From a virus: DNA of 23,354 nucleotides. The notes under the pieces are model-generated. The model did not search any database. It saw only the letters and a list, made by a program, of their open reading frames with translations, and had not been told where the DNA came from. The position numbers were made by a program, and so were the translations under genes. Below are positions 1 to 14,646 of the stretch, piece after piece (the stretch's first letter is position 1; every line of letters begins with the position of its first letter). The DNA is taken from positions 1 through 23,354 of IMG/VR virus record IMGVR_UViG_3300048837_000416. One strand, written 5' to 3'.

Positions 1-2
1 AC

Positions 3-1478: not shown

Positions 1479-1486
1479 ACAGCCGT

Positions 1487-1512
1487 GGGGCTGGCTGACG
1501 CCGGCCAGCCCC
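1487..1512 (+). other. Intergenic hairpin between ParB-like and helicase-like genes
   Basis: GGGGCTGGC (1487-1495) pairs perfectly with GCCAGCCCC (1504-1512) across an 8-base loop, 9 bases after the upstream stop codon. No uninterrupted T-run follows, so it is a weak terminator, attenuator or RNA-stabilising hairpin rather than a clear intrinsic terminator. It argues against the alternative GTG start at 1485, whose first codons would lie in the stem. Confidence 0.5.
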
Positions 1513-1535
1513 CTACTTTCAATGAGGGATACAAC

Positions 1536-3113
1536 ATGTTGGCAGACTCGGATGCTTATCAGCTTAGCCGCTGGTTTGCAGGATTAACTTTCGATGATGG
1601 CGTGCCGGTGACCCCGGCGACGCGCTTGGCGGTGACCACGCTGGACAGCAGCAGCCGCGATGACATCCAGATTGCGCGGCGGCTTTTTGCGCCGGTGCTG
1701 GAACAAATTTTTAAGCAGGACCCGAAGACCCCGCCATATCGCAAGACGCTACAGGTGCGGCCTGAAGATGGCGCGTATATTCCCCCGCTACCGGCAGAAG
1801 CTCAACTGAGCGACAAGGCATTGAAGGCGGCGGAACAGGCCGCGCCGTGGTGGCACGAGACGACGGACTGGCTGATGGCACGATCACCCATGACGCCGCC
1901 GGTGTTCCTGCGCGCGGGGGCGGTGTGGCTGCTGTCGCTGGCGATCGCGCGGCGGACGTGCATCGAATTTCATGACCGGATCACCCCACTGCTTTATATG
2001 GTGTGGGTGGCGGAAACCTCAAAGTATGCGAAGTCTACAGGGCTTCGGGCGCTTCAGGCGATCATCAACCTGACGATGCCGCACATGCTGATCCCCGGGC
2101 AGACCAGCCCTGAGGGCATGATTGAGATGCTGAGCGGGCAGATGCCCACGAACTTCGAAAAATTGAGCCAGAGGGATCAGAAACTTGTAGTGGCGGGCCA
2201 ACAGTTCGCCGGGCAGCGCGGAATCTTGCTGGACGAGTTCAGCAGCCTGCTGGGCAGTGCGAAAAAAGATTACATGCAGGGCTTTGTAGAACTGCTGATG
2301 CGGCTGTATGACGCGAACGACTTGGAACAGCACTACACCCGCAGCGGCGGCTTGGCGCTGATCAAGTACCCGGGCATCTCAATACTGGGGGCCACGACAC
2401 CGGCAGCGGTGGCGCGGAATGTGGGCCATGAAGCGTGGGAAAACGGGGCGATGGCCCGCTACCTGATGATATTTCGGGATCGCCCCCAGCCGTATTCGAC
2501 AGGCAACCTTGTGAGCGCGCCGCCTGAGCACATTATACACCCGATTCAAACGCTTCATCAAATGCTGCCAGTGATCAAAACGAATGACCCGCTGGACGAT
2601 GAAGCCCGGTTTGACCCGCTGGTGGCCGCGGCGACAAAAGACGCGCGAGAGGCCTACATGCGATACACCCGCGCGGTGTATTACGACATGATTGAGGACG
2701 ACCTCGACGAGCGGCTGCACGGGAACTACCGCCGCATGCACGTACAGGCGCTGAAGATGGCGCTGGCGCTGGCCACACTGGACTGGTCCTGCAACGGGGG
2801 CAAGGGTCAAATCACGATTGAGCTTGGGCATTTTGCGCTTGGGCAGATGATGGCAGAAGAAAGCCGCGCGAGCCTGCACCGGATGATGCCGGTGATCAGC
2901 CAGAGCACGGACAGCCGCACGCACCGCGATCTGATCAGCATTTTGCGCCACAGCCCGGGCGGGCTGACGGTGCGTGATCTGGTGCGGCGGACGGGACGCA
3001 ATACCAACGAAATCCGCAGCGCTTTGGATGTGCTGGCGGATGCTGGTGAGGTGGACATTGTGGCGCATCAGCCTGCGAGCGGTCGCCCGACAAACCTCTA
3101 TCGACTGCTTTAG
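1536..3113 (+). CDS. DUF3987-type helicase-like ATPase with C-terminal winged helix
   Basis: A 525-residue protein starting at ATG 1536, with a GAGGG ribosome-binding site about 7 bases upstream. Its middle resembles the DUF3987 / phage primase-helicase-like ATPases. A strand-loop resembling Walker A is found at E160-T-S-K-Y-A-K166-S-T: the Lys-Ser/Thr is kept but both glycines of GxxxxGK(S/T) are replaced (E and A). A good Walker B, ILLDEF (D233, E234), follows, then a stretch (GISILGATTP) like the sensor strand of these ATPases. The last ~60 residues (SILRHSPGGLTVRDLVRRTG onward) look like a winged helix-turn-helix. The gene lies directly before a CHC2/Toprim primase, so it probably supplies the helicase or DNA-engaging partner at the phage origin. 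The degenerate P-loop leaves real ATPase activity in doubt. DUF3987 membership is a recognition by eye, not a search result. Confidence 0.65.
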   Translation: MLADSDAYQLSRWFAGLTFDDGVPVTPATRLAVTTLDSSSRDDIQIARRLFAPVLEQIFKQDPKTPPYRKTLQVRPEDGAYIPPLPAEAQLSDKALKAAEQAAPWWHETTDWLMARSPMTPPVFLRAGAVWLLSLAIARRTCIEFHDRITPLLYMVWVAETSKYAKSTGLRALQAIINLTMPHMLIPGQTSPEGMIEMLSGQMPTNFEKLSQRDQKLVVAGQQFAGQRGILLDEFSSLLGSAKKDYMQGFVELLMRLYDANDLEQHYTRSGGLALIKYPGISILGATTPAAVARNVGHEAWENGAMARYLMIFRDRPQPYSTGNLVSAPPEHIIHPIQTLHQMLPVIKTNDPLDDEARFDPLVAAATKDAREAYMRYTRAVYYDMIEDDLDERLHGNYRRMHVQALKMALALATLDWSCNGGKGQITIELGHFALGQMMAEESRASLHRMMPVISQSTDSRTHRDLISILRHSPGGLTVRDLVRRTGRNTNEIRSALDVLADAGEVDIVAHQPASGRPTNLYRLL

Positions 3114-3204
3114 TTGTGTCGGTCTACTGACACAACCCTGTAGTTTCGTCTTTTGACTTGTGTCATTTTGTTGACGAAAGTCTGTTAGTGGAAGGTCTTA
3201 CAAG
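3114..3204. promoter_or_regulatory. Repeat-rich gap before the primase gene
   Basis: This gap is AT-richer than its flanks and packed with short repeats. TTGTGTC occurs at 3114-3120 and 3158-3164 and its inverse GACACAA at 3129-3135, giving a 7-bp hairpin at 3114-3135. A second inverted repeat, TTTCGTC (3144-3150) with GACGAAA (3173-3179), encloses the other TTGTGTC copy. The arrangement could be an operator or a local origin-like element between the helicase-like and primase genes. No convincing -35/-10 pair was found. Confidence 0.4.
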
Positions 3205-4299
3205 ATGTTGGACGTTGAAGCGATCAAGGCACGGGTGGACGTTCGGGACGTGGTGGAGCGCGATCTCGGACGGCCTCATCACCGAGGCCACACCTACGAT
3301 ACGTACCGCTGCCCGCTGCACGGCGAGCAGAAGGGGTATTCGCTAGTGGTGTATGCGGATCACTGGCAATGCTACGGGAAATGCGGGAAGGCGGGGGATG
3401 CTATCGCATGGATGCGGGAGTATCACGGACTCGATTTTAAGCAGGCGGCGCTGGCGCTGGGCGCGGATGAGATGAAGGACGCGGCCCCCAAGCGGGTGAA
3501 CGCCACAAAAAACGTCTGGAAAGAGGGGACCGAGCCGCCGCCGTGGGATTGGCAGTTTTTTGCGGATCAGGTGGTGGTGCGGGCGCAGAAGTATTTGTGG
3601 GGCAAAGGTGGGGCGGCAGCGCTTGAGTATTTGCACTGGCGCGGGCTGACGGACGAAATCATTGAGATGGCGGGGCTGGGGTATGTGCCCGCGCAGACGG
3701 AAGAGGATGAGAAATTCGGGCGCGTTTTGTACCCGGACTGGCTGAAACCGGACGGCAAGCCGGTGCGGGTGGCCAGCGGAATCACGCTGCCGCACTATGC
3801 CGAGGGGCATTTGTGGGGGGTGCGAATCCGGCGGATGCGTGGACAGATCAAATACGTGTCGATTGCCGGCGGGAAGGCGGCGCTTTACTGGAGCGACTTC
3901 ATCACGGAGCAGCTACCGGTGATGATCGTGGAAGGCGAGTTCGACGCGCTGGTGCTGCATCAGGTGGTGGGTGACGTGATCAGCCCGGTGGCGCTGGCCA
4001 GCACGAGCAACGCGCGACTGGATAAGCGGTGGCTGGGGCGATTGATCACCGCGCCGGTGGTGCTGGCAAGGATGGACGCGGATGGGGCTGGCGCTAAGGC
4101 GCTGGAGAAGCTTCAAGCGCTGTCGCCGCGCATCCGAGCGGTGGGCGTGCCGCTGGAGAAAGATGTGAACGACTACTACCGGCTGTGCTTGCAGCACCCT
4201 GAGCCGCCTGCACGGGCGCGGATGCTGGCATGGGTGGCGCGGCTGCTGGAGGATGACGCGCTTATGCAGCAGGTGGTGGAAGATGCACACGGCGGTTAG
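3205..4299 (+). CDS. DnaG-like primase: CHC2 zinc finger plus Toprim domain
   Basis: A 364-residue protein starting at ATG 3205 with GGAAGG upstream. Near the N-terminus is a CHC2-type zinc site: C36-P-L-H39, then C56-Y-G-K-C60 followed by GKAGDAIAW, the usual DNA-sensing zinc-binding fold of DnaG-type primases. The finger has C-x3-C instead of the more usual C-x2-C. The second half carries a Toprim core: VMIVEGEFDAL (E243, the catalytic glutamate) and ARMDADGAG (D290, D292, the metal-binding DxD pair). The protein should synthesise RNA primers for phage DNA replication. It lacks an obvious helicase domain; the DUF3987-like neighbour upstream would provide this as a separate polypeptide. The gene's end overlaps the next start by 17 bases, so the two are probably co-translated. 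Confidence 0.88.
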   Translation: MLDVEAIKARVDVRDVVERDLGRPHHRGHTYDTYRCPLHGEQKGYSLVVYADHWQCYGKCGKAGDAIAWMREYHGLDFKQAALALGADEMKDAAPKRVNATKNVWKEGTEPPPWDWQFFADQVVVRAQKYLWGKGGAAALEYLHWRGLTDEIIEMAGLGYVPAQTEEDEKFGRVLYPDWLKPDGKPVRVASGITLPHYAEGHLWGVRIRRMRGQIKYVSIAGGKAALYWSDFITEQLPVMIVEGEFDALVLHQVVGDVISPVALASTSNARLDKRWLGRLITAPVVLARMDADGAGAKALEKLQALSPRIRAVGVPLEKDVNDYYRLCLQHPEPPARARMLAWVARLLEDDALMQQVVEDAHGG

Positions 4300-4885
4300 G
4301 CCGCTGGTGACGATTGACCATGAACGGGGGGTGTATGTGGTGCGGTCTAAGGACCGCATCCAGACCGCTCCTTATAGCAGCCGCGAGACTGCGGCGCGGG
4401 TTGCCGAGTTTTATCGGTGGCGCGGGTGGGAAGTTCGCATTGTTGGAGAATCACAGAACCATGGAGATAGCAAGGTGACCACAGACAAGGCACGCCAGAT
4501 CGAAGAAAGTTTGGTTAAGACACTGTGGAGAATCGACGCTTTTGGCACGGAGAAAGCGGACGGTCGCAGCCTGCGCGGGCTGCGTAAGCGCGGGTTGATC
4601 GACGAGCGGGGCGGCATCACCGCGGCGGGGCGAGAGCTGATGGCGGGGTATTCGCAGTTTGCTTTACAAACGCCTGATGAGTGGCTGAATGAGCCGCAAG
4701 AAGAAGAATTATCGGAAGTGAAAGTGACAGCGCCAGAGCCGGAGCCAGTGCGCCGTGACGTGGGGCGGGAGACACTGAAGGCGGTACGGGCGGGGCTGTT
4801 GAGATCGGTGAAGGGGTATTTGCCGAAGGACTTTCAGGGCGTGGTAGACGAGATCGAGCGCATCAATGACGTGCTGGAGGGGTGA
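4283..4885 (+). CDS. Hypothetical protein with winged-helix-like middle
   Basis: A 200-residue product starting at ATG 4283 inside the last codons of the primase gene, with GGTGGTGGAAG just upstream; an earlier ATG at 4253 would force a 47-base overlap and adds Trp/Cys-rich residues, so it is less likely. Residues 1-55 look like a small alpha/beta domain (VTIDHERGVYVVRSKDRIQ). The middle (ARQIEESLVKTLWRI through GRSLRGLRKRGLIDERGGIT) has the helix-helix-wing spacing of a winged helix that distinguishes parent and altered states in many phage regulators. The C-terminus is acidic then basic. No family is recognised. Its place after the primase suggests a replication accessory or DNA-binding role. 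Confidence 0.7.
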   Translation: MHTAVRPLVTIDHERGVYVVRSKDRIQTAPYSSRETAARVAEFYRWRGWEVRIVGESQNHGDSKVTTDKARQIEESLVKTLWRIDAFGTEKADGRSLRGLRKRGLIDERGGITAAGRELMAGYSQFALQTPDEWLNEPQEEELSEVKVTAPEPEPVRRDVGRETLKAVRAGLLRSVKGYLPKDFQGVVDEIERINDVLEG

Positions 4886-4889
4886 GGCG

Positions 4890-5180
4890 ATGGCGAGCGA
4901 TGAAACACGGACGGAACATTATCAGCGCAGAATTGCAGAGGCTAAAGAGACGCTTGAGCGGGCGCAGAAGCTTTACGAGGCGACGCAGGACGCGCTGCTG
5001 ACGGCCCGGATGGACCCGAAGGTGTCGAACGGGGAGTGCTCGCGGCTTTCGATGGCGGCGGAATCAGCGTTCGGTGAGGTGAAGCGGTGCAAGGCGGCCT
5101 ATGATCGCGTGTGGGATGAGTGGATCAAGAGCGGCGCGCTGCCCGCTGAAGATCGCAAGAAGAAGGGGATGGGCGGGTGA
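4890..5180 (+). CDS. Small coiled-coil hypothetical protein
   Basis: A 96-residue protein whose start is ATG 4890, preceded by GGAGGGGTGAGG; an in-frame ATG at 4866 lies inside the upstream gene and has no comparable ribosome-binding site. It is almost wholly charged helix (HYQRRIAEAKETLERAQKLY, then SAFGEVKRCKAAYDRVWDEW), consistent with a helical hairpin or coiled coil. It ends in a Lys-rich tail. The stop codon overlaps the next start in a TGATG junction, so it belongs to the same early operon. Function is unknown. Confidence 0.7.
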   Translation: MASDETRTEHYQRRIAEAKETLERAQKLYEATQDALLTARMDPKVSNGECSRLSMAAESAFGEVKRCKAAYDRVWDEWIKSGALPAEDRKKKGMGG

Positions 5181-5716
5181 TGGGGAAAATTAGCAAAAGC
5201 CTGAAATACGATGACCCGACAGCCTTTGGTAAACGGTGGCCACGCATCGAACGTATCAAAGAGCGCACCGGCTTGGCGCTGGTGAGTGCAGATGAAACAA
5301 TGTGGAAGATGGGGCCGATCCGTGCCAGTGTCGTGCTCACTTCAAAAAACGGTTTTTTTATGTCGATCCATGGGCGCGATCGGTATCCAACGTGGGATGA
5401 AATCGTGTGGTTACGCTACAACCTGCTGCCTGATGCGGCGCAGATGGTTTTGATCTTGCCCAACCTGAACCGGTACATCAATCTTGAGGACACACATCAC
5501 AAATATGTGTTCACACTTGAACAGCAGGGATGGGCGCTTGATCCTGTGCCGATGTGTGCACACTGTAAAGCGCCCGTTCCGCTCAAGTTGACCGAGATTG
5601 AGGGCATTCAGGGCACGTTCGTTTGCGGCGATTGTGGGTACACGCAGTCGATTTGGATGGACTCTTGGAACGAGGATCACGGCAACGGTATGACGGCCAA
5701 AGGTGAGGGACGATGA
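5180..5716 (+). CDS. Hypothetical protein with DUF7694-like core and C-terminal zinc ribbon
   Basis: A 178-residue protein. ATG 5180 overlaps the previous TGA by one base; a GTG at 5177 is the only earlier option. Residues about 35-110 (SVVLTSKNGFFMSIHGRDRY..PTWDEIVWLRYNLLPDAAQMVLIL..RYINLEDTHH..YVFTLEQQ) recall the small phage DUF7694 domain, in which a conserved PTWEE segment is followed by a YVNxHP-like strand; here the His-Pro is replaced by EDTHH. Two CxxC knuckles follow (C126/C129 and C149/C152), forming a probable zinc ribbon. Its sequence is visibly less GC-biased at third positions than neighbours, hinting at separate acquisition. DUF7694 assignment is tentative. Confidence 0.65.
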   Translation: MGKISKSLKYDDPTAFGKRWPRIERIKERTGLALVSADETMWKMGPIRASVVLTSKNGFFMSIHGRDRYPTWDEIVWLRYNLLPDAAQMVLILPNLNRYINLEDTHHKYVFTLEQQGWALDPVPMCAHCKAPVPLKLTEIEGIQGTFVCGDCGYTQSIWMDSWNEDHGNGMTAKGEGR

Positions 5717-5952
5717 GTGACGAGAGTGTGAACACGGCGATCACGTGCCCGCACTGCGGGGCGGCTGACCAGTGGAGCTGCTGGGACGAGCAGACGGAGA
5801 TTTTTGAGGACCTTGAAACCGGCGAGGACTATGAAGCGCCGGTGGGGTATCTGAGGTGTAAAGCCTGCGGGAAGTCCTTCACGCATCACCACGAAAGCCC
5901 GAATAAGTGGCTGGGCACGTGGGACGAGGTTTATGGAGCCGAGGATGAGTGA
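5713..5952 (+). CDS. Small zinc-ribbon protein
   Basis: A 79-residue acidic protein with an ATGA start/stop overlap to the gene before. It carries two CxxC knuckles, C12-P-H-C15 and C49-K-A-C52, 33 residues apart, in a typical zinc-ribbon layout, followed by KSFTHHHE. Such proteins in phage early regions are often restriction-alleviation-like or transcription-related, but nothing here fixes a role. The ending WLGTWDEVYG echoes WMDSWNEDHG in the preceding protein, suggesting the two ribbons may be related. Confidence 0.7.
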   Translation: MSDESVNTAITCPHCGAADQWSCWDEQTEIFEDLETGEDYEAPVGYLRCKACGKSFTHHHESPNKWLGTWDEVYGAEDE

Positions 5953-6169
5953 CTGCACTAAGCTGTTGTGCAAGTGCGGATGCGGGCGGGCGCTGCTGGC
6001 GGGACAGACGAACTGGGCGACTCCGGCGTGTGTGCTGCGGTCGATGATGACGGATGCGGCGCTGGTCGATGTGTTTGGCGGGGTGGAGGCGTTTGAAGCG
6101 GCGATTGCATCGCTTGAGGCGCGGACACTGGCGGAAATAGGAGAACCGCCGACAGAAGACGGGACATAG
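5945..6169 (+). CDS. Small Cys-rich protein, last gene of the early operon
   Basis: A 74-residue product. ATG 5945 is chosen because GGAG lies 6 bases upstream and the N-terminus MSDCTK matches the style of the preceding gene (MSDESV); ATG 5933 is an in-frame alternative. It has a dense Cys cluster CKCGCGRAL (C9, C11, C13) with C4 and C29, typical of a small zinc-binding knuckle seen in phage hypothetical proteins (CKCGCG). The rest is an acidic helix. It overlaps the upstream gene by 8 bases and is followed by a strong terminator, so it closes the early transcript. Function unknown. Confidence 0.65.
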   Translation: MSDCTKLLCKCGCGRALLAGQTNWATPACVLRSMMTDAALVDVFGGVEAFEAAIASLEARTLAEIGEPPTEDGT

Positions 6170-6191
6170 AACGGTTAAGAACGTAAAATTA

Positions 6192-6232
6192 AGAACACCC
6201 GTGTGATTGTGTTGCACGGGTGTTCTATTTTT
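6192..6232 (+). terminator. Strong intrinsic terminator ending the early operon
   Basis: AGAACACCCGTG (6192-6203) pairs perfectly over 12 bp with CACGGGTGTTCT (6215-6226), with an 11-base loop, followed by ATTTTT. It lies about 25 bases beyond the last early gene and before the 6279 regulator. Confidence 0.92.
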
Positions 6233-6241
6233 AAGGTACAA

Positions 6242-6258
6242 TCAATGTATTACATTGA
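6242..6258. promoter_or_regulatory. 17-bp inverted-repeat operator upstream of the small regulator
   Basis: TCAATGTA (6242-6249) and TACATTGA (6251-6258) form perfect 8-bp arms around one central T. A TACAAT hexamer (6237-6242) that could be a -10 box abuts it, though no good -35 at normal spacing is seen. The dyad lies about 20 bases before the ATG of a winged-helix gene, the usual place for an autoregulatory operator. Confidence 0.55.
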
Positions 6259-6278
6259 GAGTACAGGGGGAAAATGCC

Positions 6279-6596
6279 ATGTTTAGCGAATACATGGCTA
6301 TGGTCTATGATGAAATCTTAAAAGCGGTGGTGCAGGCGCAGCGCGATTTGCGGCGCGGGGTGCTGCCGCGTGATGTGCAGGCGCGGCTTCCTTATTCACG
6401 GGCTGAAGGGAGCCTGCGGCGGGATATGCTGGCGATGTATGAATGTGGGCTGCTGGTGCGCGTGGGCGGGTATGGCGCGCGGCGGGGGTATCGTGTGCCG
6501 ACGCGCACGGAATCCTTGGCATGGCGGGCGAACGGTGGCATGTGGCCGCCTTTTGCAGAGCGTGCGGGCGCGGTGGCGATGGCACTGGCTGTTTAA
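6279..6596 (+). CDS. Small winged-helix transcriptional regulator
   Basis: A 105-residue protein starting at ATG 6279, 8 bases after AGGGGG. The out-of-frame ATG at 6274 is not used. Helices around residues 10-28, PRDVQARLP and AEGSLRRDMLAMYECGLL, followed by a short hairpin VRVGGYGARRGYRV, match a winged helix-turn-helix: the second helix would read DNA and the RVGG...RGYRV hairpin would be the wing. The protein is Arg-rich. It stands alone between a strong terminator and a promoter-like segment, with an inverted repeat just upstream, so it is a good candidate for a switch protein controlling early-to-late transcription or its own promoter. Direction of control (activator or repressor) cannot be told. 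Confidence 0.65.
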   Translation: MFSEYMAMVYDEILKAVVQAQRDLRRGVLPRDVQARLPYSRAEGSLRRDMLAMYECGLLVRVGGYGARRGYRVPTRTESLAWRANGGMWPPFAERAGAVAMALAV

Positions 6597-6688
6597 TAAT
6601 GTGATGTGTTGATGCTAGGCTGTATATAATTTCGCGTAGTGATAATAAAAATGGACGGGAGAGGGTCATTGATGCACGGACTCTCAGA
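6597..6688 (+). promoter_or_regulatory. AT-rich late-promoter candidate before the glycosidase gene
   Basis: An AT-rich island in GC-rich DNA contains a TATAAT hexamer (6625-6630) within GTATATAAT. A TTGATG (6609-6614) is only 10 bases away, too close for a standard -35, so the promoter may depend on an activator such as the regulator just upstream. A strong ribosome-binding site GGGAGAGGG (6657-6665) lies downstream, 6 bases from ATG 6672, which opens a 10-codon reading frame (MHGLSECLGG, stop at 6702) overlapping the glycosidase start in another frame. Confidence 0.45.
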
Positions 6689-7972
6689 GTGTTTAGGCGG
6701 TTGATTGTGGATAAATTGGGATACAACGTGCACGGCAACTATCTGCACGGTCGTGAAGCGGTGGTGGCGGCGCAGGTGAAAGCGACACAGCCGCGCACGG
6801 TGCTGGTGATGGACAACCTGAACGTGGCGGCCAGCGTGGGCGCGGCATCATCCGGGACGGAGATCGTGTTCCGTCACTATATGGATGATGAGATTTGGAA
6901 ACGCATGACCCCGGCGGCGTGGATGGCGGAGCAGATGCGGTTTGCGCGCGATTACGGGTATACGCTGTATGTGCTGAACGAGCCGCCGATGACGCGCGAG
7001 GTGGTGGGGTGGCTGCTGGCGGTGGCTAAACTGTGTGTGAAGCACGGGTATCGGGCGGTGATCGGGAACTTTGGGGTTGGGCAGCCAGAGCCGCACGAGT
7101 GGGGCGCGATCGCCGCGCCGCTGCTGCGGTACATCGCGGAGAACTCCACGCTGCTGACACTGGGGCTGCACGAATATGCGCCGCTGCTGATGCAGTATGA
7201 AGCGACACGGGACCCGAACAGCTTCCCCGATAGTGTGCCGAACGTGACATGGCTGGTGGGCCGGTGGCGCTTCCTTAAAAGTGCATGGCCGAATGTGCCT
7301 ATCATGATCACGGAATTCGGTTGGGACCGGATCGACGCGGTGCGCGAATGGCAAGAGCCGAGAATCGGCGGGTGGCCGAAGCACGCGGGCTACTTCACGA
7401 GCAGGCCGTACTGGGCGGCGCAGCAGGTGGGCGATGTGGAAGAATACGCGGCGCGTCAGGTGCGGTGGGCCATGAAGCGGTATTATGATGACCCGCAGAT
7501 AAAAGCGGTGCTGCTGTGGTGCTTGGGCGGTGAAGAGCCGCATTGGAGTGACAGCGATATGACGCGCGTGCCGAAGTTCCTTGAGGCGCTGCGGGCTGGA
7601 AATACGGGCGGAACGGTTCCGAACCCGCCTGCACCGCTGTATAAAATTTTGAACATGGGCACACAGCTGGTGACAGCGATCACCGGCGGGGTGTCGGTGA
7701 ACGTGCGGGCTGAACCGCATACGAGCGGGGCGCGGCTGGGCACGATTACGGTGGGCAGCACGATCCGGTATTACAGCGACTCGCTGGCGGAGGGTGGCAT
7801 CTACACATGGAAGCGTTTGGAAAGTGGCGGATGGTTCGCTGATTACCCCGGGCTGACACTCTCGGAGGCATCGACGGACCCGATGCTGGCGCGGATCGCG
7901 GCGATGCGCCGTGAGCTGGACGCGCTGGAGAGTTTGGTGAGGTCACGACATGAGCAATTCGCGGCGGTTTGA
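6689..7972 (+). CDS. Clan GH-A-like glycosidase with C-terminal SH3 domain
   Basis: A protein of up to 427 residues. Residues ~10-300 look like a (beta/alpha)8 glycosidase: strand-end YVLNEPP carries a probable acid/base Glu (E98) after Asn, and PIMITEFGWDR carries a probable nucleophile Glu (E209), the NEP...E pattern of clan GH-A (GH5/GH39-like). After a Pro-rich linker (TVPNPPAP), residues ~330-400 (GVSVNVRAEPHTSGARLGTI...WKRLESGGWFAD) form a bacterial SH3-type wall-binding domain. No signal peptide or membrane segment is seen. A polysaccharide- or peptidoglycan-degrading lysis or tail role is inferred from the SH3 domain and its place at the head of the late genes. The start is uncertain: GTG 6689 lacks a good ribosome-binding site, while GTG 6707 has AGGCGG 6 bases upstream. 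Its end overlaps the small-terminase start by 23 bases. Confidence 0.75.
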   Translation: MFRRLIVDKLGYNVHGNYLHGREAVVAAQVKATQPRTVLVMDNLNVAASVGAASSGTEIVFRHYMDDEIWKRMTPAAWMAEQMRFARDYGYTLYVLNEPPMTREVVGWLLAVAKLCVKHGYRAVIGNFGVGQPEPHEWGAIAAPLLRYIAENSTLLTLGLHEYAPLLMQYEATRDPNSFPDSVPNVTWLVGRWRFLKSAWPNVPIMITEFGWDRIDAVREWQEPRIGGWPKHAGYFTSRPYWAAQQVGDVEEYAARQVRWAMKRYYDDPQIKAVLLWCLGGEEPHWSDSDMTRVPKFLEALRAGNTGGTVPNPPAPLYKILNMGTQLVTAITGGVSVNVRAEPHTSGARLGTITVGSTIRYYSDSLAEGGIYTWKRLESGGWFADYPGLTLSEASTDPMLARIAAMRRELDALESLVRSRHEQFAAV

Positions 7973-8573
7973 TTTAAGCCACGTGATCGACGTGGTGAAG
8001 CAGGTGGGCGCAAGCCCTGCTAAAATTGCGGCAGAGTTGGGCTGCTCTCGCGGGACAATCTACGGGTATTTGCGGCGCTACCCGGCGCTGCGCGAGGTGT
8101 TTGAAGCGGCACGTGGGGCTGCGGTCGATGATCGGGCGCAGTTTAGCAAAGAGGCGTTTGAGGCGGCGATTGCCGGTTCTCATGGCGTGAAGGCGGCGGT
8201 GGCGGCGGCGGTGGGGTGCAGCCGCGCGACGGTGGATAATGCGCTGAATCGGTGGCCAGAGCTGGCGGAGCAGCTGGAAGCATCGCGCGCGGGGTTGGTG
8301 TCGCTGGCGGTGAGCGCACTGGTGACGGACGTACAGACTCCGGCGAGCGAGGGGCATCAGCGCGCGTATATGTTTGTGCTGAAGACGATGGGCAAGGACG
8401 AGGGCTTTACCGAACGCAGCGAAGTGACCGGGGCGGACGGCGCGCCGCTGCTAGATTTGTCGCCGGAGACAATGCGCCTGCTTCAGCGGATGGGGTTGGA
8501 CATGAGCCAAGTCAGCCGCCAATTTGAAGCGATGGTGCGGGCGGCGGCGGTGCAGAAAGGGCTTACAGAATGA
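7950..8573 (+). CDS. terS: Terminase small subunit (two tandem HTH motifs)
   Basis: A 207-residue protein starting at ATG 7950 within the glycosidase gene, with GGTGAGG upstream. It contains two copies of the same helix-turn-helix type: AKIAAELGCSRGTIYGYLRR (around residues 24-43) and VKAAVAAAVGCSRATVDNAL (around 73-92), both followed by a WPELAEQLEASR-like helix. Small terminases bind packaging start sites (pac/cos) and feed DNA to the large subunit. The later segment KDEGFTERSEVTGADGAPL is a common small-terminase ending motif. Position immediately before the large subunit supports the call. The doubled DNA-reading unit is less usual than a single HTH. Confidence 0.82.
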   Translation: MSNSRRFDLSHVIDVVKQVGASPAKIAAELGCSRGTIYGYLRRYPALREVFEAARGAAVDDRAQFSKEAFEAAIAGSHGVKAAVAAAVGCSRATVDNALNRWPELAEQLEASRAGLVSLAVSALVTDVQTPASEGHQRAYMFVLKTMGKDEGFTERSEVTGADGAPLLDLSPETMRLLQRMGLDMSQVSRQFEAMVRAAAVQKGLTE

Positions 8574-8589
8574 TGTTTATCGGAAGTGA

Positions 8590-10041
8590 ATGGGTGTGAA
8601 CGAGAGTGAGTTTGCGGCGGGGTTGTTTCGGGGGGTGTTCGGGGTGGACCCCCCTAAGCGTCAACGGTGGATCGACTGGACGCTTGAGCCGCGCTTGAAT
8701 GATGGCACGCTGCCGCTGTATGAGATCGACAAGGCAGCGGGGCGGGTGGTGCTTAATTTGCATGAAGGCCAGATGCGCGCATGGGAGAACCCGGCGCGCT
8801 TTGTGTTTATGATCGCGGGCAAGCAGAGCGGGAAGACGATCTTCGGGCCGGTGTGGCTGCTGCGGACGATCATGCTGCTGGGCGCGGGGGATTATCTGGC
8901 GATCAGCGCGACGTATGACCTGTTCAAGTTGAAGCTGCTGCCCGCGCTCAAACAGTTCTTTGTGCATGATCTGGGCATTGCGCGGTACTGGTCGGGCGAT
9001 CGCATCCTTGAGCTGCGGGACCCGGACACGGGCGAGTTTGGCGCATCGTTCGGGCATGAGCATGAAAAGATGTGGGGGCGGATCATCCTACGGTCGGCTG
9101 ACAGTGAAGAGGGGTTACAGAGCGCGAGCGCGCTGGCGGCGTGGCTGGATGAGCCGGGGTTGTATTCGTCGGGCGTGTGGAAGGACGTTCGCGGGCGTCT
9201 CTCACTAGCGCAGGGGCCTGCACTGGGGACCACGACGCCTTATGACATGGGGTGGTTGAAGCAGCAAATCTATGACCCGTGGCAGGCGGGAGACCCTGAG
9301 ATTGCGGTGATTCAGTTCAGCTCGGCGCTGTCGCCGTTCTTCGCTGCCGGTGAGTATGAGAGCCTGCGGCGGACGATGCAGCCGCATCAGTTCAGGATGG
9401 ACTATGATGCCGAATTCGGGCGGCCTCCGGCGGGCATCTACGAGGACTTTATAGAGAAGCTGCGGACCGAGGGCGGTCACCTTGTGGAGCGGTTTGTGAT
9501 CCCTGAGGACTGGCCACGGCTGGTGGCGATTGACCCCGGGATTGTGAACCCCGGCAAGCTGTGGATTGCCCACGATGTGGCACGGGATGAATACTACATC
9601 TATCGGGCGGAGAAGGGCGGCCTGCGGCGGACGAGCAAAGAACACGCGGCCTATGACGTGGAACGGGCGAAAGAAGGCCGTGAGCGCGTTATCTGGTGGG
9701 CGGTGGGGGCAAAATCGGAGAAATACTGGCGCGAGGACTACAAAGCGGCGGGGGCGAACGGTGTACGCGAGCCGGGCATCAGCGATGTGTGGGAGGGAAT
9801 TGACCGCGGGGTGCAGCTGGTGCGCGAGCATCGCGTGTTTGTGATGCGTGATCTGGTCGATTTCATCGGTGAGATGCTGAGCTATGCGCGGGTGATCAAA
9901 AACGGCGAGCCGACGAACGAGATCAAAGACAAGAGCACGTATCACCTGATCGACGCTTACCGCTATTTTGCGGTGCAGGTGGTCCAGAAAAACAAATTGA
10001 GGGCGCAGGCTACAGTAGGAGCAAAGAGCTATGTTGGATAA
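8590..10041 (+). CDS. terL: Terminase large subunit (packaging ATPase-nuclease)
   Basis: A 483-residue protein. Walker A is A76-GKQS-GKT83, Walker B is AAWLDEPG (D187, E188), and SGKT is followed by helix TIFGPVWLL. The C-terminal nuclease half contains RLVAIDPGIVNPG (D315, first metal ligand of the RNase H-like fold) and HLIDAYRYF (D455, probable last ligand). The protein powers DNA entry into the prohead and cuts the concatemer. The length matches the family (about 450-550 residues). The ATG overlaps the last base of a TTATCGGAAGTGAA element, whose GGAAG is only 3 bases from the start codon. The gene overlaps the portal gene by 11 bases. Confidence 0.93.
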   Translation: MGVNESEFAAGLFRGVFGVDPPKRQRWIDWTLEPRLNDGTLPLYEIDKAAGRVVLNLHEGQMRAWENPARFVFMIAGKQSGKTIFGPVWLLRTIMLLGAGDYLAISATYDLFKLKLLPALKQFFVHDLGIARYWSGDRILELRDPDTGEFGASFGHEHEKMWGRIILRSADSEEGLQSASALAAWLDEPGLYSSGVWKDVRGRLSLAQGPALGTTTPYDMGWLKQQIYDPWQAGDPEIAVIQFSSALSPFFAAGEYESLRRTMQPHQFRMDYDAEFGRPPAGIYEDFIEKLRTEGGHLVERFVIPEDWPRLVAIDPGIVNPGKLWIAHDVARDEYYIYRAEKGGLRRTSKEHAAYDVERAKEGRERVIWWAVGAKSEKYWREDYKAAGANGVREPGISDVWEGIDRGVQLVREHRVFVMRDLVDFIGEMLSYARVIKNGEPTNEIKDKSTYHLIDAYRYFAVQVVQKNKLRAQATVGAKSYVG

Positions 10042-11440
10042 GTTGCAAAAACTCCTGTTAGACGGGGGATACGTGGGTTCTACGTGGGCGGCAGAGATGC
10101 GCGATCGCGGGGCGCTGGTGGCGCTGTTCCGCGATTATTATGGGGGCGCTCACCGGCTGAAGCTCACCCGTGAGATGAAGGCCATGATGCAGATCACGGA
10201 TGCCCGGCTGGACCGCTACAACGACAACTATTGTGAGATGGTGGTTGATGTGATGGCGGACCGGCTGGCGCTGGATACGATCCGCCCTGCGGGGTCTGAT
10301 GACTTCGACGAGGCGCAGGCGTGGGCGGTGACTGTGTTGGAGCGTAACCGGATCGACGCGCTGCAAATCGCGGTACATGAAGCGGTGCTGCGGGATGGTG
10401 AGGCGTATGTGATGGTGCAGTACAGCGAGGACGGCATCACGCTGGCGCGCGAGCTGGCGTGGGACGGTAAAGCGGGCATCCTGCCGGTGTGGGACAAACG
10501 CGGCGAGAAGCTGGTGTGTGCGGTCAAAGTGTGGACGGAAGTGGACACACAGCGGGTGAATATCTACTATGTGGACCGCGTGGAAAAATACGACGTGCTG
10601 AGCGATGGCAATCTACGGCAGATTGCCATTGAAGAGACGGTGCGCGATGGGATGACGCCGGGTGTGCCGCTGATCGCGTTTCGTAATCGCGGCGGGGGGC
10701 GCAGTGAGCTGACGAACGTGATCCCGCTGCAAGACTCTCTCAACCGGACTCTATCGTCGATGGTGATGAGCGCCGAGCTGACCGCGTTCAGCATGTTGTT
10801 CGCGGTGGGGTTTGAGCCACCGGCCAGCATCACGCCGGGCATGGTGATCCATGCGGGGATGCTGGAGAACGGCAAGCCGGTGAAGCCGGAGACGCTGGAA
10901 GAAGCGCAGGCGTATTCTGCGATGCAGTCTACTTATAAGCTCCAGCGGATTGAGGCGGGGGACCTGTCTCAATTGATCGGGCAGGCGGAGTTCTTGATTG
11001 ACCAGATCGCCACGGTCTCTAATACGCCGATCCCTAGCCAGATGGGCGGCAGCACGCAGAGCGGCGAGGCGCTGAAGCAGCGGGACGCGCGGCTTTTGGG
11101 CAAGGCGCGGCGGGCGCAGGTGCAGCTAGGGAACGCATGGGAAGATGTTCTTTGGCAGGCGTGGAAACAACAGGTGGTGTTTGGTGTGGCGCTGCCGCCG
11201 CGTGTGGACGGGTGGACCGCCCGTTGGAAGAGCGCCGAGGTGCGGAGTGATAGCGACGTGCGTGAGACTGCGAAAATGCTGCATGAGTGGGGGTATGAGC
11301 GCGAGGCGCTGCGGATTCTATCGTCGCTGTCGATGGTCGATTATTCGGAAGAGGACATTGACCGGCTGATGGCAGAAAAAACGGCGGAGAGCGCGGCGGC
11401 GCTGGGGGCGATCACCGGCGCGCTGCCCACATTCGGATAA
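10031..11440 (+). CDS. Portal protein (SPP1 gp6-like)
   Basis: A 469-residue protein starting at ATG 10031 with AGGAG 9 bases upstream, overlapping the terminase end. The N-terminal part (LFRDYYGGAHRLKLTREM, then NDNYCEMVVDVMADRLALD) is the pattern of the SPP1-gp6 portal family, in which a Tyr-Tyr-x-Gly start is followed by a long helix with VxxxAxRL. A segment around VHEAVLRDGEAYVMVQYSED is the next conserved strand pair, and the QMGGSTQSGEALKQRDARLL segment corresponds to the conserved S-G-xAL stem helix. Twelve copies form the vertex channel that the terminase docks on. The gene is followed by a clear terminator, so the late transcript stops here rather than continuing into head genes as in most phages. 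Confidence 0.88.
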   Translation: MLDKLQKLLLDGGYVGSTWAAEMRDRGALVALFRDYYGGAHRLKLTREMKAMMQITDARLDRYNDNYCEMVVDVMADRLALDTIRPAGSDDFDEAQAWAVTVLERNRIDALQIAVHEAVLRDGEAYVMVQYSEDGITLARELAWDGKAGILPVWDKRGEKLVCAVKVWTEVDTQRVNIYYVDRVEKYDVLSDGNLRQIAIEETVRDGMTPGVPLIAFRNRGGGRSELTNVIPLQDSLNRTLSSMVMSAELTAFSMLFAVGFEPPASITPGMVIHAGMLENGKPVKPETLEEAQAYSAMQSTYKLQRIEAGDLSQLIGQAEFLIDQIATVSNTPIPSQMGGSTQSGEALKQRDARLLGKARRAQVQLGNAWEDVLWQAWKQQVVFGVALPPRVDGWTARWKSAEVRSDSDVRETAKMLHEWGYEREALRILSSLSMVDYSEEDIDRLMAEKTAESAAALGAITGALPTFG

Positions 11441-11458
11441 GCGACATTCTGTGAAGTG

Positions 11459-11485
11459 AAAGCCCGCGAGACTGCGGGCTTTTTG
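11459..11485 (+). terminator. Intrinsic terminator after the portal gene
   Basis: AAAGCCCGC (11459-11467) pairs with GCGGGCTTT (11474-11482) around a 6-base loop, with a T-run through 11484. It lies 18 bases past the portal stop and insulates the cassette downstream. Confidence 0.9.
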
Positions 11486-11497
11486 ATTCTGCTAGAC

Positions 11498-11514
11498 CCC
11501 CTAATTATTAGGGG
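11498..11514. promoter_or_regulatory. 17-bp palindrome CCCCTAAT-T-ATTAGGGG
   Basis: Perfect 8-bp arms around a central T, just after the portal terminator and upstream of the TATAAT element. It is a probable regulator-binding site distinct from the tandem 14-bp sites that follow, or a weak second hairpin. Confidence 0.55.
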
Positions 11515-11522
11515 TATGTGTT

Positions 11523-11567
11523 TAGCGATAACGCTATATAATAGGTATATTGATAGCGATAACGCTA
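11523..11567 (+). promoter_or_regulatory. Cassette promoter with two identical operator-like 14-mers
   Basis: TAGCGATAACGCTA occurs exactly twice (11523-11536 and 11554-11567). Each copy is itself a dyad (TAGCG and CGCTA around ATAA). The copies are 31 bp apart, close to three turns of the helix, so proteins bound to both would face the same side. A perfect TATAAT (11537-11542) and a TATATT (11546-11551) lie between them; no good -35 is visible. The layout is that of a repressible promoter. GAGGG then gives the ribosome-binding site for ATG 11582. Confidence 0.7.
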
Positions 11568-11581
11568 AGTATGAGGGCAAA

Positions 11582-12460
11582 ATGATTACAGTGACATGCA
11601 AGGAATCAGGCATTAATTTTGAAGCGGCGACCAAGCGCACCCAGCAGCATCCCGATGTCGCAGCGCTCAAAAACGCGGCAAACAAAAACGGTAACTATCG
11701 TGAGGTCAACGAGGCGCTGTCCGCCGTTCGGAAAGCCGGTGGCTACAGCACAATCGAAGAATTCATGGCACTGGTTGAAAATCACATCAACGGTAAAAAA
11801 GAAGAACAAAATCGCCGCTCTATCGCCGCTGCACAGGCGCGCGAAAAAGAGAATGCCGAAATTGAAGCACGCAAAGATGCTCGCCGTAAGCAGAATGCAC
11901 TCCTCAATGCCAACGGGTACACTTGGCACAAATACGATGTGTATGATGTGACGCAGGAAGTGGTCGGAAGCGAATGGAAGCTTATATCAGCAGACGGTCG
12001 CTTTGTGTCGGTTGAACAGGCACTCGATGAAATCGCGCGCGGCGTTGATGTTGTGGTCGCCGAGGCCGAAGCAAAACGCCAAGAAGCACAGGCCGCAGCT
12101 ATCACCGCCGCTGAGATCGAAGCAAAACGCCAAGCGGACGAAGATGCAACCGACGCCGCCGCTTATGCCGCGTTTGATACAGCAGTTGAGCAGGTCAAGC
12201 AAAAATCCGTGCAGGTCAAAGCGTTTGACTTTGGCAGATTTAGCAAAATCGTCACAATGGGCAAGGTCAGCACCACGTACCGCCGTTACGATTGCATCTG
12301 GCGAGGCGCAATCAACGGGGTGGTGTGCTACGTGGTCTTTACCGACAGCGGGTATGACTACGACGGCAACGCCGCGTATTACAGCGAGTCCCCCGAAGCG
12401 GCGGGGCTGACTGTCTTTGTTGACGCCGACGGGGATGATAACGTGGGGCGGTGGTTTTAA
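11582..12460 (+). CDS. Cassette protein 1: coiled-coil hypothetical
   Basis: A 292-residue protein starting at ATG 11582, 4 bases after GAGGG; the longer frame from 11456 would run through the terminator and operators and is rejected. The N-terminus (VTCKESGINFEAATKRTQQH) looks like a small domain with one Cys, then a long charged helix (residues ~75-110 and 155-200, rich in A/E/K/R) probably forms a coiled coil. The coil contains a 17-bp direct DNA repeat. The C-terminal ~75 residues are beta-rich with aromatics (TTYRRYDCIWRGAINGVVCY, then DYDGNAAYY). Codon use is unlike the flanking phage genes (more AAA, CAA, GAA and GCC). No family is recognised. It is co-transcribed with the excisionase-like gene after it (TAATG overlap). 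Superinfection exclusion, host modification and defence are all possible and none is shown. Confidence 0.72.
   Translation: MITVTCKESGINFEAATKRTQQHPDVAALKNAANKNGNYREVNEALSAVRKAGGYSTIEEFMALVENHINGKKEEQNRRSIAAAQAREKENAEIEARKDARRKQNALLNANGYTWHKYDVYDVTQEVVGSEWKLISADGRFVSVEQALDEIARGVDVVVAEAEAKRQEAQAAAITAAEIEAKRQADEDATDAAAYAAFDTAVEQVKQKSVQVKAFDFGRFSKIVTMGKVSTTYRRYDCIWRGAINGVVCYVVFTDSGYDYDGNAAYYSESPEAAGLTVFVDADGDDNVGRWF
12067..12134 (+). repeat. 17-bp direct repeat inside cassette gene 1
   Basis: CGAAGCAAAACGCCAAG occurs at 12067-12083 and 12118-12134, a 51-bp (17-codon) step, encoding EAKRQ twice in the coiled-coil part. It suggests growth of the coil by internal duplication. Confidence 0.75.
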
Positions 12461-12954
12461 TGGACTATCTAAACGTCACCCGAGATGAAAATTTTCAGCG
12501 GATAGCCGCGTTTATCCGCACGGCCAAAAGTACGGAGTGGGCGCAATCTCACCCTGAGTCTAAGTTCGGATTTTACTACGGCAATTTTGTCCGCTTAGCG
12601 CGTCAGTATCACCCTGACCTGCGGGGAGACCTGATTGAGGCATACACAGGCATGACCAGCAGCGCTAATGAGGTCGATGTGATGCTGTCGCACTATGTCA
12701 CTACCGACGCGGTGGCGTGGTTTATCGGTTTGCTTGACGGCAACCGGCAAGCAGTCAAAACGACATTGGCGCTGCTTTTGGCCGTAGCGTCGTGTGAAGA
12801 TACGACGCTAACACCTGTAGAGTGCGCCGCGCAAACCGGCACATCTGAGTCGGGATGGCGAAACAAAGCGGCAGCGGGGCTTGTGCCCGGCGCGCGCAAG
12901 GTTGGCAAACAATGGTTAATCCCGTCCGCATGGCTCAAGTACGGTGATGTTTGA
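12460..12954 (+). CDS. Cassette protein 2: excisionase-like (HTH_17/MerR-type) DNA-binding protein
   Basis: A 164-residue protein starting at ATG 12460, one base inside the previous stop (TAATG). Residues 117-160 (LTPVECAAQTGTSESGW, RNKAAAGLVPGARKVGKQWL, IPSAWL) match the excisionase-like HTH_17 fold, in which TxxEAAxxxG is followed by a wing ending GARKxGxxWLIPxxxL. The N-terminal ~110 residues are helical with an apolar stretch (TTLALLLAVA, ~101-110), not recognised. It is the natural candidate to bind the tandem TAGCG...CGCTA sites upstream and so regulate its own operon; this is inference. A terminator follows. The codon style matches cassette gene 1, not the phage structural genes. Confidence 0.72.
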   Translation: MDYLNVTRDENFQRIAAFIRTAKSTEWAQSHPESKFGFYYGNFVRLARQYHPDLRGDLIEAYTGMTSSANEVDVMLSHYVTTDAVAWFIGLLDGNRQAVKTTLALLLAVASCEDTTLTPVECAAQTGTSESGWRNKAAAGLVPGARKVGKQWLIPSAWLKYGDV

Positions 12955-12981
12955 GCCAACCCGTGCAAGCAAATGTAAATC

Positions 12982-13010
12982 AAAAGCCCCTGAGAGATCG
13001 GGGGCTTTTT
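12982..13010 (+). terminator. Terminator closing the cassette (probably bidirectional)
   Basis: AAAAGCCCC (12982-12990) pairs with GGGGCTTTT (13001-13009) around a 10-base loop, with a T-run after it on + and, read on -, GGGGCTTTTG after the stem. It would stop the cassette from the left and the minus-strand head genes from the right. Confidence 0.88.
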
Positions 13011-13014
13011 GATT

Positions 13015-13026
13015 CAGAATATTCTG
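13015..13026. repeat. 12-bp palindrome CAGAATATTCTG, copy 1
   Basis: Perfect palindrome directly after the cassette terminator. The same 12 bases form the upper stem of the terminator at 19846-19876. Confidence 0.6.
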
Positions 13027-13073
13027 TGGGCTTCCTTTATATACCGTTTTCTGATGCTCAAAAAAGGCGGGTG

Positions 13074-14108
13074 CTAGGGCGTGGTGGTATTGAGCACCTG
13101 CGTGAGCGTGGCTTCGGTGACCATGCGGCCAAAGACCGGATCGCTATAGTGGTGGATGAAATCGCGCAGGGTGGCGCGGCCTGTGTTGATGGCGGCCAGC
13201 TTGCCCGGCGAACGGCGGAACGATTCCAGATTGGCGCGCTGTGACGGGGTGAGCGCGTCAAACCACTGCTGGCCGGTGGTGATGGGGCGCTCAAAGCCGC
13301 GCACGATGACCACGCTGGTGCAGCGTCCATTGTGATGATCGTCGATGCGTGGGATTGCTGTACCGGCATCACGTTCGGAATCCCACACGACGTCCCCGTG
13401 TTGGGCGATGCAGGACAGGCAGGTGCGGGCATCCAGCGCCGCGATGCGGACCACCTGCCGCGCGATGTCGCGGTTTGCGTTCTGGTGCAGGGTGGTGGCG
13501 TCACGGTAGGACTGGAGCTGCAACGTTCGCATGAGGGTGTTGGCCACGTGGACCGGCATGGCGTTGGTGAGGCGGCGTATCTCTCGCGCGGTGCGGAGGG
13601 GTGACCAGCCGTCGATGACCCCACGGATCGCTTGATTGCGGATCACGTCGATGACCTGCGCGGGGTAGCTCTTGAGCGCGTCTGCCCATGCGGGGGACTG
13701 CACATACCCGATGAGACGCGCGATTGTCTCGGGGTCGGGTGTGTTCCATGCGATGCCCAGACGGGCGAGCTGCTGGTTTGTGGTGCTGCCTAGTGCTAGC
13801 TGGCGCTGCACCTTACCGGCTGCGGTCTGGGCGTCTTGCTGGAGCTGATCGGCAGCGGCATCGACGAGGCGCGTGGCACTGGCGAGGCTGTCTTCCAGAT
13901 CAGCCAGCAGCGCGCGCAGAATGGCGTTATCCACGGTGAGACGCTGCCCGGCGGCAGTGAGGCGCAACACTTCGGCATCCAGCTCGGTGAGGCGCTGCGC
14001 GATGATCCCACGGGTGGTGATGCCGCTGATGGCGTTGAGCGTGGCGCGGGCTGCCTGCTCGTATCCACGATCAAGCAGGCCCGCAACCAGTGTTGAGACG
14101 GTGGACAT
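13074..14108 (-). CDS. MuF-like / SPP1 gp7-like minor head protein, on the minus strand
   Basis: A 344-residue protein. The C-terminal half holds the minor head (phage head morphogenesis) signature: LDARTC230-LSC233...DHHNGRC263, equal to the family pattern C-x2-C...HPNCRC, with His258/259 completing a likely metal site; here HPNC is HHNG. A following WFDALTPSQRANLES helix and FRRSPGKLAA tail are also family-like. Such proteins sit inside the portal region and are injected or help DNA exit. In nearly all phages the gene follows the portal in the same direction; here it lies on the opposite strand, separated from the portal by a cassette. Its start follows the preceding minus-strand stop with one base between them (TAA-C-ATG), so the two are co-translated. 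Confidence 0.85.
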   Translation of the reverse strand: MSTVSTLVAGLLDRGYEQAARATLNAISGITTRGIIAQRLTELDAEVLRLTAAGQRLTVDNAILRALLADLEDSLASATRLVDAAADQLQQDAQTAAGKVQRQLALGSTTNQQLARLGIAWNTPDPETIARLIGYVQSPAWADALKSYPAQVIDVIRNQAIRGVIDGWSPLRTAREIRRLTNAMPVHVANTLMRTLQLQSYRDATTLHQNANRDIARQVVRIAALDARTCLSCIAQHGDVVWDSERDAGTAIPRIDDHHNGRCTSVVIVRGFERPITTGQQWFDALTPSQRANLESFRRSPGKLAAINTGRATLRDFIHHYSDPVFGRMVTEATLTQVLNTTTP

Positions 14109-14109
14109 G

Positions 14110-14520
14110 TTAGGCGGGGATCGCCACAGGCGACAGGCTAAGCACGAGGGTCACGGTGGCCGTGCCCGTGCCCCAGAACAGCAGGTTGGGGATTTCGGTG
14201 GCCAGCAGATCGGCGTAGGGACAGATTGCCCCGGCGGTCGCGCTGAGCACGTAGGGCAAGCCTGCTACGGTGGTTGCACCGATGTTGATGCGGCTGCCGG
14301 GCCCGGCAATCTTCATAATGCCGCCGTTTGTGCCGTCGGTGATGGCGATGCCTGCGACTGCTGCGGTGTTGGCTGCGGATGCGTCGGCCAGCACATAGCG
14401 CAGGCTGCTATTGAGGTAAAGCACCTGCCCGCGGGTGATGGCTGCGCCACCGTATCCGTCGAACGGGCGCGCGCCGGACTGCCAATCGACGTTTCCGGCG
14501 GTGATGCTGAGATTTGTCAT
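14110..14520 (-). CDS. Capsid-cement/decoration-like protein, on the minus strand
   Basis: A 136-residue protein starting at ATG 14520 (minus), with a perfect GGAGG 8 bases upstream; an upstream in-frame start at 14622 lacks one. The sequence is small-residue- and beta-rich (GGAAITRGQVLYLNSS, RYVLADASAANTAAVAGIAI, GLPYVLSATAGAI). ITRGQVLYLNS followed by AAVAGIAITDG is the pattern of DUF2190-type capsid cement proteins, where a start strand is followed by a V(A)GVA segment. The same pattern is seen in the + strand cement gene at 15377 (IARGAIVNLES...GFLGVANE). It would lead a two-gene minus operon with the minor head gene. Function as decoration or fibre is inferred. Confidence 0.6.
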   Translation of the reverse strand: MTNLSITAGNVDWQSGARPFDGYGGAAITRGQVLYLNSSLRYVLADASAANTAAVAGIAITDGTNGGIMKIAGPGSRINIGATTVAGLPYVLSATAGAICPYADLLATEIPNLLFWGTGTATVTLVLSLSPVAIPA

Positions 14521-14580
14521 GAGGGAAGCCTCCGTTGTTTTGCAATTCGATGCTTTGAGCGTAGCGCTGGTGATGGCTGG

Positions 14581-14602
14581 TAACGCACGAGAATGTGCGT
14601 TA
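14581..14602. promoter_or_regulatory. Inverted repeat TAACGCAC...GTGCGTTA
   Basis: Perfect 8-bp arms (14581-14588 and 14595-14602) with a 6-base spacer GAGAAT; the right arm overlaps the TTATCGGAA element. It may be an operator shared by the divergent gene sets. Confidence 0.55.
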
Positions 14603-14646
14603 TCGGAAGCGAATAAAGACACAGTTAAGGTGAGATCAAAATAATT

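Follow-up and report, generated by a model that had tools for sequence, protein, structure and literature searches.

Background

The promoters of acr-aca operons contain one or two inverted repeats, one of which always lies in the core promoter, and are repressed by a helix-turn-helix (HTH) protein, Aca (PMC9410906). Crn4 degrades cyclic oligoadenylates, the signal of type III CRISPR systems, and the copies found in phages have been proposed to be anti-CRISPRs; residues T13, H15, and R112 of Crn4 have been reported to be conserved and were tested by mutation (PMC12830947). In archaeal viruses, anti-defense regulons share an early promoter sequence (PMC11065993), and a location antisense to structural genes has been described as typical for accessory loci (PMC7067206).

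The window analyzed here is the whole 23,354-nucleotide virus record IMGVR_UViG_3300048837_000416, within which the region at 11441–13073 was examined as a cassette. This cassette holds a terminator, a TATAAT box between two identical palindromes, genes for a 292-aa orphan protein and a 164-aa HTH protein, and a second terminator. We put the probability at about one half that it is a moron operon working like acr-aca, with an anti-defense orphan and an HTH autorepressor. The wording "working like" is deliberate, and membership of the class is not claimed, because the regulator matches no known Aca family and inhibition of CRISPR is hypothetical.

Organization of the cassette

Compared with the empty site in the closest relative (contig G005), the inserted DNA spans ~1.63 kb on the plus strand, from the portal stop codon to the 3′ end of the minor-head (MuF) gene (11441–13073), with breakpoints placed to within some tens of bases. 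The original prediction of a self-contained unit was confirmed as to the unit, but not as to its limits, which had been set at 11459 and 13015. On the portal side, an intrinsic terminator 3′ of the portal gene (11458–11483, plus strand; hairpin of −17.3 kcal/mol, z −4.3, with a T run) insulates the cassette and is without counterpart in G005. It is followed by a 17-bp perfect palindrome, CCCCTAATTATTAGGGG (11498–11514), which appeared terminator-like in a consensus scan and unremarkable in folding (z −1.8), and is a candidate for either a weak terminator or a further binding site.

The −10 box TATAAT (11537–11542, plus strand) lies directly 3′ of a putative operator, TAGCGATAACGCTA (11523–11536), with 5-bp arms and a 4-bp center, and transcription is predicted to start at ~11549. 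A second, identical putative operator (11554–11567) lies in the 5′ leader, the two being 31 bp apart from start to start, that is, about three helical turns. Twin copies of TAGCGATAACGCTA arose in none of 100 dinucleotide shuffles, and the pair therefore exceeds chance; no further copy of TAGCGNNNNCGCTA was found in the window or in the overlapping contig G001. The claim that the cassette has its own promoter holds for the TATAAT box and the twin sites, but not for a recognizable −35 box, no match above 2 of 6 positions having been found for the window TATAAT.

A Shine-Dalgarno sequence, GAGGG (11573–11577, plus strand), precedes by 4 nt the ATG of the orphan effector gene (11582–12460, plus strand; 292 aa), for which a full-length homologue exists in a distant relative (G002). 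The putative autorepressor gene (12460–12954, plus strand; 164 aa), with a C-terminal HTH_17 or MerR/Xis-like winged helix, overlaps the effector gene by one base (TAATG). The cassette is closed by another intrinsic terminator (12978–13014, plus strand; hairpin of −22.5 kcal/mol, z −6.5), and the two terminator hairpins are 81% alike over 27 nt. Both were missed by the consensus scan and are supported by their folding z-scores, and an Rfam search gave no match. All of the elements originally named—the palindromes, the TATAAT box, two open reading frames, and two terminators—were found.

The two cassette genes have the lowest GC3 among all window genes (0.59 and 0.61) and a GC content of 54–55%, versus 57–65% for most neighbors. 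The earlier argument that their codon use differs from that of every structural neighbor is nevertheless weakened, because the two head genes on the minus strand depart from typical usage just as much, the codon typicality of the cassette genes being no worse than theirs.

Insertion into the head operon

Nine further contigs were obtained for comparison by tape-measure alignment. The closest relative, G005 (31,238 bp), is colinear with the window, with proteins mostly 60–85% identical, and covers the junction, since MuF is present at both ends of its contig. There, the portal gene (29016–30422) is followed at once by MuF, which converges on it and has its 3′ end at 30427; the two 3′ ends touch or overlap, and intervening DNA, terminators, operators, and the gene pair are all absent. 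Head genes also directly follow the portal gene, with no insert, in L034, L037, and G002 (L036). Because the portal gene directly precedes head genes in the relatives, the 1.63 kb at 11441–13073 is extra DNA. The left junction is backed by a second contig, G001 (IMGVR_UViG_3300048839_000706), which overlaps window positions 1–11859 with one mismatch, is 100% identical across the junction, and extends 10.7 kb upstream; the right junction is seen in the window alone.

These sequence comparisons demonstrate the insertion and autonomy of the cassette, and its being a moron insertion is very probable. The unit is absent from a close relative, as the empty site in G005 shows, and has a predicted promoter of its own, whose −10 box and operator are conserved with the gene pair, and a terminator. 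The opposite outcome, in which the pair would belong regularly to this phage group's head region, was looked for among the relatives and not found; the view that the unit is autonomous, resembles a moron, and brings its own regulator is borne out by the empty site and by the presence of the pair and operator at a non-homologous locus in G002. As in prophage morons and accessory loci, an independent promoter and terminators, a distinct composition, and presence or absence between close relatives are observed. The cassette differs from these in carrying its own putative regulator and a double operator, and benefit to the host is putative.

Next to the cassette (13074–14622, minus strand), the genes for the MuF minor-head protein and a 170-aa head protein run opposite to the other genes of the head operon. 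This arrangement is common to G005, and the same genes lie on the plus strand in L034, L037, and G002; the minus-strand MuF segment is an inversion inside the essential head operon. Contigs of sample 3300048839 break on either side of the cassette and inverted segment, with G001 ending at 11859 and L029 starting at ~15262, which suggests population variation there.

Recurrence of the pair and operator in a distant relative

With the N-terminal domain of the effector alone as query, a second occurrence of the pair was found in G002 (IMGVR_UViG_3300048591_000671). Its effector homologue is full length and 42% identical, and its HTH homologue is 29% identical (E 2e-14). The gene order is orphan, one middle gene, and HTH gene, and the pair sits in an accessory cluster antisense to structural genes and far from the head genes. 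Directly upstream of this operon lies TTGACATTTAAGCGATAACGCTATAATATT, and the 12-bp dyad of the window operator, AGCGATAACGCT read on either strand, is present in five copies in G002, all within 2.6 kb, and in none of the shuffles. In four promoters of the form TTGAC[TA]-16/17-TA...T, the dyad always occupies the −35/−10 spacer, and one of them has a second dyad site 21 bp upstream. The distances of 21 bp in G002 and 31 bp in the window, about two and three helical turns, would fit cooperative binding. Because the G002 promoters have near-consensus hexamers and an optimal spacer, a protein bound there should repress rather than activate. The −10 box and operator are conserved together with the pair in both phages. 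Recurrence of the pair with its operator, proposed as support, was thus observed at a non-homologous locus, but the two known occurrences, in distantly related phages, fall within one broad phage group rather than in unrelated genomes. Elsewhere in G002, a reverse transcriptase gene (L021:11533-12681; RVT_1, E 1.5e-10) lies beside the gene for a 475-aa protein (10064–11491), and the two may be a diversity-generating retroelement.

The middle gene of the G002 operon (L011:5856-6461) matches PADLOC Unk_01 (E 3e-22), and its product matches the solved Crn4b structure 9r7b (E 6.8e-11) and Crn4a. Of the Crn4 residues, the T and H at T13/H15 are kept, as is R112, with INLTPH and VRD aligned; the R92 position is Ala, and the protein carries an unrelated C-terminal extension. 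By the sequence criterion, the gene encodes a Crn4-family ring nuclease, and it is under the same operator-bearing promoter as the orphan and HTH genes. The window cassette, which has no Crn4 gene, is the G002 orphan/HTH unit minus the ring nuclease. Thus, the G002 operon includes a member of the Crn4 ring nucleases (Unk_01) that conserves the catalytic residues, and the neighboring anti-CRISPR-type gene looked for on the model of acr-aca is present in the G002 version but not in the window cassette. Because G002 ties the orphan and the new regulator to a ring nuclease, newly proposed as a phage anti-CRISPR, there is now a specific function to test.

The HTH protein and the operator

The HTH domain of the 164-aa protein (~114–156) matches Pfam HTH_17 with an E of 0.016 and 15.9 bits, below the 27-bit cut-off, and the best match of the G002 homologue is also HTH_17, again below threshold. 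Structure models of both cassette proteins were built from two-sequence alignments; that of the HTH protein (pLDDT 52) gave MerR, Xis, RdfS, BldC, and SoxR as best fold matches, all with E > 1 and none individually significant. The protein matched no Aca family in NCBIfam, PADLOC, or Pfam and gave at most weak DUF3150 matches among named phages and plasmids. A phmmer match to a designed TALE protein was dismissed as a sign of relationship, the alignment profile having failed to reproduce it.

The HTH gene is the sole regulator gene common to the window cassette and the G002 operon, and is co-operonic with the orphan gene in both phages. Within the window phage, the cassette is the sole place with the operator (window and G001), and both the pair and the operator are absent from the nine other relatives' records, G005 included. 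The HTH protein is probably an autorepressor that binds the twin operators. An XRE-like protein of the window phage (L005:5071-5289) is an unlikely binder, because G005 keeps this regulator and has no operator. A literature search for the operator gave no related match.

The orphan effector

The 292-aa effector is soluble, with a pI of 5.1, and its low-confidence model (pLDDT 68) shows an N-terminal helical domain, two long helices split by a beta hairpin, and a C-terminal beta region. As originally stated, it belongs to no recognized family: no match was found in Pfam, PHROGs, PADLOC, or NCBIfam, the fold matched no structure significantly, and neither named phages and plasmids nor a scan of genome collections yielded a relative. 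No membrane segment was detected in either protein (highest 19-residue Kyte-Doolittle mean, 1.0 for the effector and 1.3 for the HTH protein). In the PADLOC search for known anti-phage defense, the effector had no match and the HTH domain one weak match. The earlier suggestion of superinfection exclusion or defense is therefore less likely, given the lack of a membrane segment and of a defense-family match. Anti-defense during infection is favored over protection of the lysogen because of the Crn4-family gene in the G002 operon, and the orphan can tentatively be regarded as an anti-defense protein.

Comparison with known systems and a proposed mechanism

As in acr-aca operons, an orphan gene is followed by a co-transcribed HTH gene (overlapping at TAATG in the window, with one gene between them in G002), and one or two inverted repeats are present, one inside the core promoter, in agreement with the published pattern (PMC9410906). 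Furthermore, each version forms its own unit, and that of G002 stands beside a Crn4-family ring nuclease of the kind proposed as a phage Acr. Unlike in acr-aca operons, the regulator has a predicted C-terminal MerR/Xis-like winged helix without a known-Aca match and a length, 164 aa, above the 150-aa ceiling applied to Acas; the effector (292 aa) is larger than the majority of Acrs and has no similarity to known ones; and in G002 one operator governs four separate promoters. In G002, as in the anti-defense regulons of archaeal viruses (PMC11065993), a single regulatory sequence is common to several small, unrelated accessory genes, except that the promoters here are of bacterial sigma-70 type with an embedded dyad. 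Repressor sites repeated away from the immunity region are also found in the stoperators of Cluster A mycobacteriophages, whereas the sites described here are symmetric and placed within promoters, and are confined to accessory units.

On the acr-aca-like reading, an operon shielded by its own terminators would have inserted where the portal gene meets the convergent MuF gene. Upon infection, with the repressor still absent, host RNA polymerase would transcribe it from the TATAAT promoter, and the orphan protein produced would interfere with one of the host's immune systems. Through translational coupling, the HTH protein would meanwhile build up and bind both palindromes, which sit on one face of the DNA, three helical turns from each other, and between them cover the −10 region and the leader. 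It would shut the promoter, so that an initial pulse would give way to expression at a low maintenance level. At the sequence level, the insertion, promoter elements, terminators, operator conserved with the pair, and ring-nuclease partner in a relative are all in evidence. Against the reading, the pair has been seen only twice, and the window cassette is missing the Crn4 gene; the two HTH proteins are 29% identical, yet the operator core is identical; and the window promoter is without a −35 box and the HTH fold matches are individually not significant.

A bolder proposal, which we consider doubtful, is an undescribed anti-defense regulon of separate promoters marked by the dyad TAGCGWTAWCGCTA, with a new class of Aca-like repressor of MerR/Xis-type winged-helix fold and the 292-aa protein as a new immunity inhibitor. 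Within such a regulon, the 292-aa protein would plausibly act in the cyclic-oligoadenylate pathway alongside its Crn4 operon partner.

Alternative explanations

The cassette could instead be a moron of lysogenic conversion, with the operon on in the prophage, the orphan protecting the lysogen, by superinfection immunity or defense, or otherwise benefiting the host, and the HTH protein setting the level. The upstream part of G001 (L005:3703-10027) contains two tyrosine recombinase genes and a ParA gene, then a ParB-like gene, as well as a tail gene; a phage-plasmid lifestyle is possible. The integrase and ParA/ParB genes, which suggest a temperate or plasmid-like phage, would suit this account, as would the autonomous promoter and terminators, the foreign composition, the absence from the closest relative, and the position of the G002 cluster antisense to structural genes. 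A defense-family match and a membrane segment are missing, however, and in G002 the operon includes a ring nuclease, with anti-defense activity; we regard lysogenic conversion as unlikely, although it fares best among the alternatives.

Slightly less likely still, the operator may belong to a host-encoded regulator, such as a stress or SOS-type repressor, by which phage units would be wired into a host network, the HTH protein being otherwise employed. Such a regulator could explain why an otherwise unrelated phage, G003 (IMGVR_UViG_3300002498_000055), has the same operator-TATAAT-operator layout with 31-bp spacing at a twin-operator promoter (L007:6748-6794) without the pair, which was not found within its 22.7-kb fragment. 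No sense gene lies behind that promoter, which points antisense into a 273-aa open reading frame. In a search for the exact twin spacing, on the other hand, none of 84,980 bacterial and archaeal genomes had the twin pattern upstream of genes. One Gemmatimonadota MAG contains paired TAGCGTATACGCTA-type palindromes 31 bp apart in intergenic DNA (L009:1616-1660 and L010:4235-4279), a match judged to be an unrelated intergenic repeat of that one MAG. G003 also encodes a 91-aa protein (L007:1833-2108) made up of a LexA-type DNA-binding domain, the protease part being absent; no LexA domain was found in the window phage or G002.

A reverse-order type II toxin-antitoxin-like addiction module, with the toxin first and a DNA-binding antitoxin second, could stabilize a plasmid-like prophage, and the overlapping two-gene operon, the palindromic operators over the promoter, the predicted DNA binding of the second protein, and the presence of ParA/ParB are what such a module would offer. 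It is nonetheless improbable: neither protein matched a type II toxin or antitoxin family in Pfam, PHROGs, PADLOC, or NCBIfam, the first gene is large and multi-domain, and in G002 a third gene splits the pair and the operator also occurs at three other promoters.

Still less can be said for an excision or integration accessory, in which the HTH protein, by its weak Xis-like winged-helix matches, would be the recombination directionality factor (Xis) of one of the two tyrosine recombinases, since G005 retains both recombinases yet lacks the HTH gene; to our knowledge, known Xis proteins are also small and have no 110-aa N-terminal domain. Finally, that the pair serves head structure or morphogenesis, as its position between portal and MuF might imply, is the least credible reading: none of the four relatives' records with a readable junction has the pair there, it has its own promoter and terminators, and in G002 it lies far from the head genes.

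Implications

The cassette provides a clean case, with the empty site as control, of a mobile and probably autoregulated unit entering a phage head operon. If the regulon proposal is true, the dyad operator would serve as a search handle for further inhibitors. Overall, a 12–14-bp operator marks candidate anti-defense genes in an uncultured phage group.
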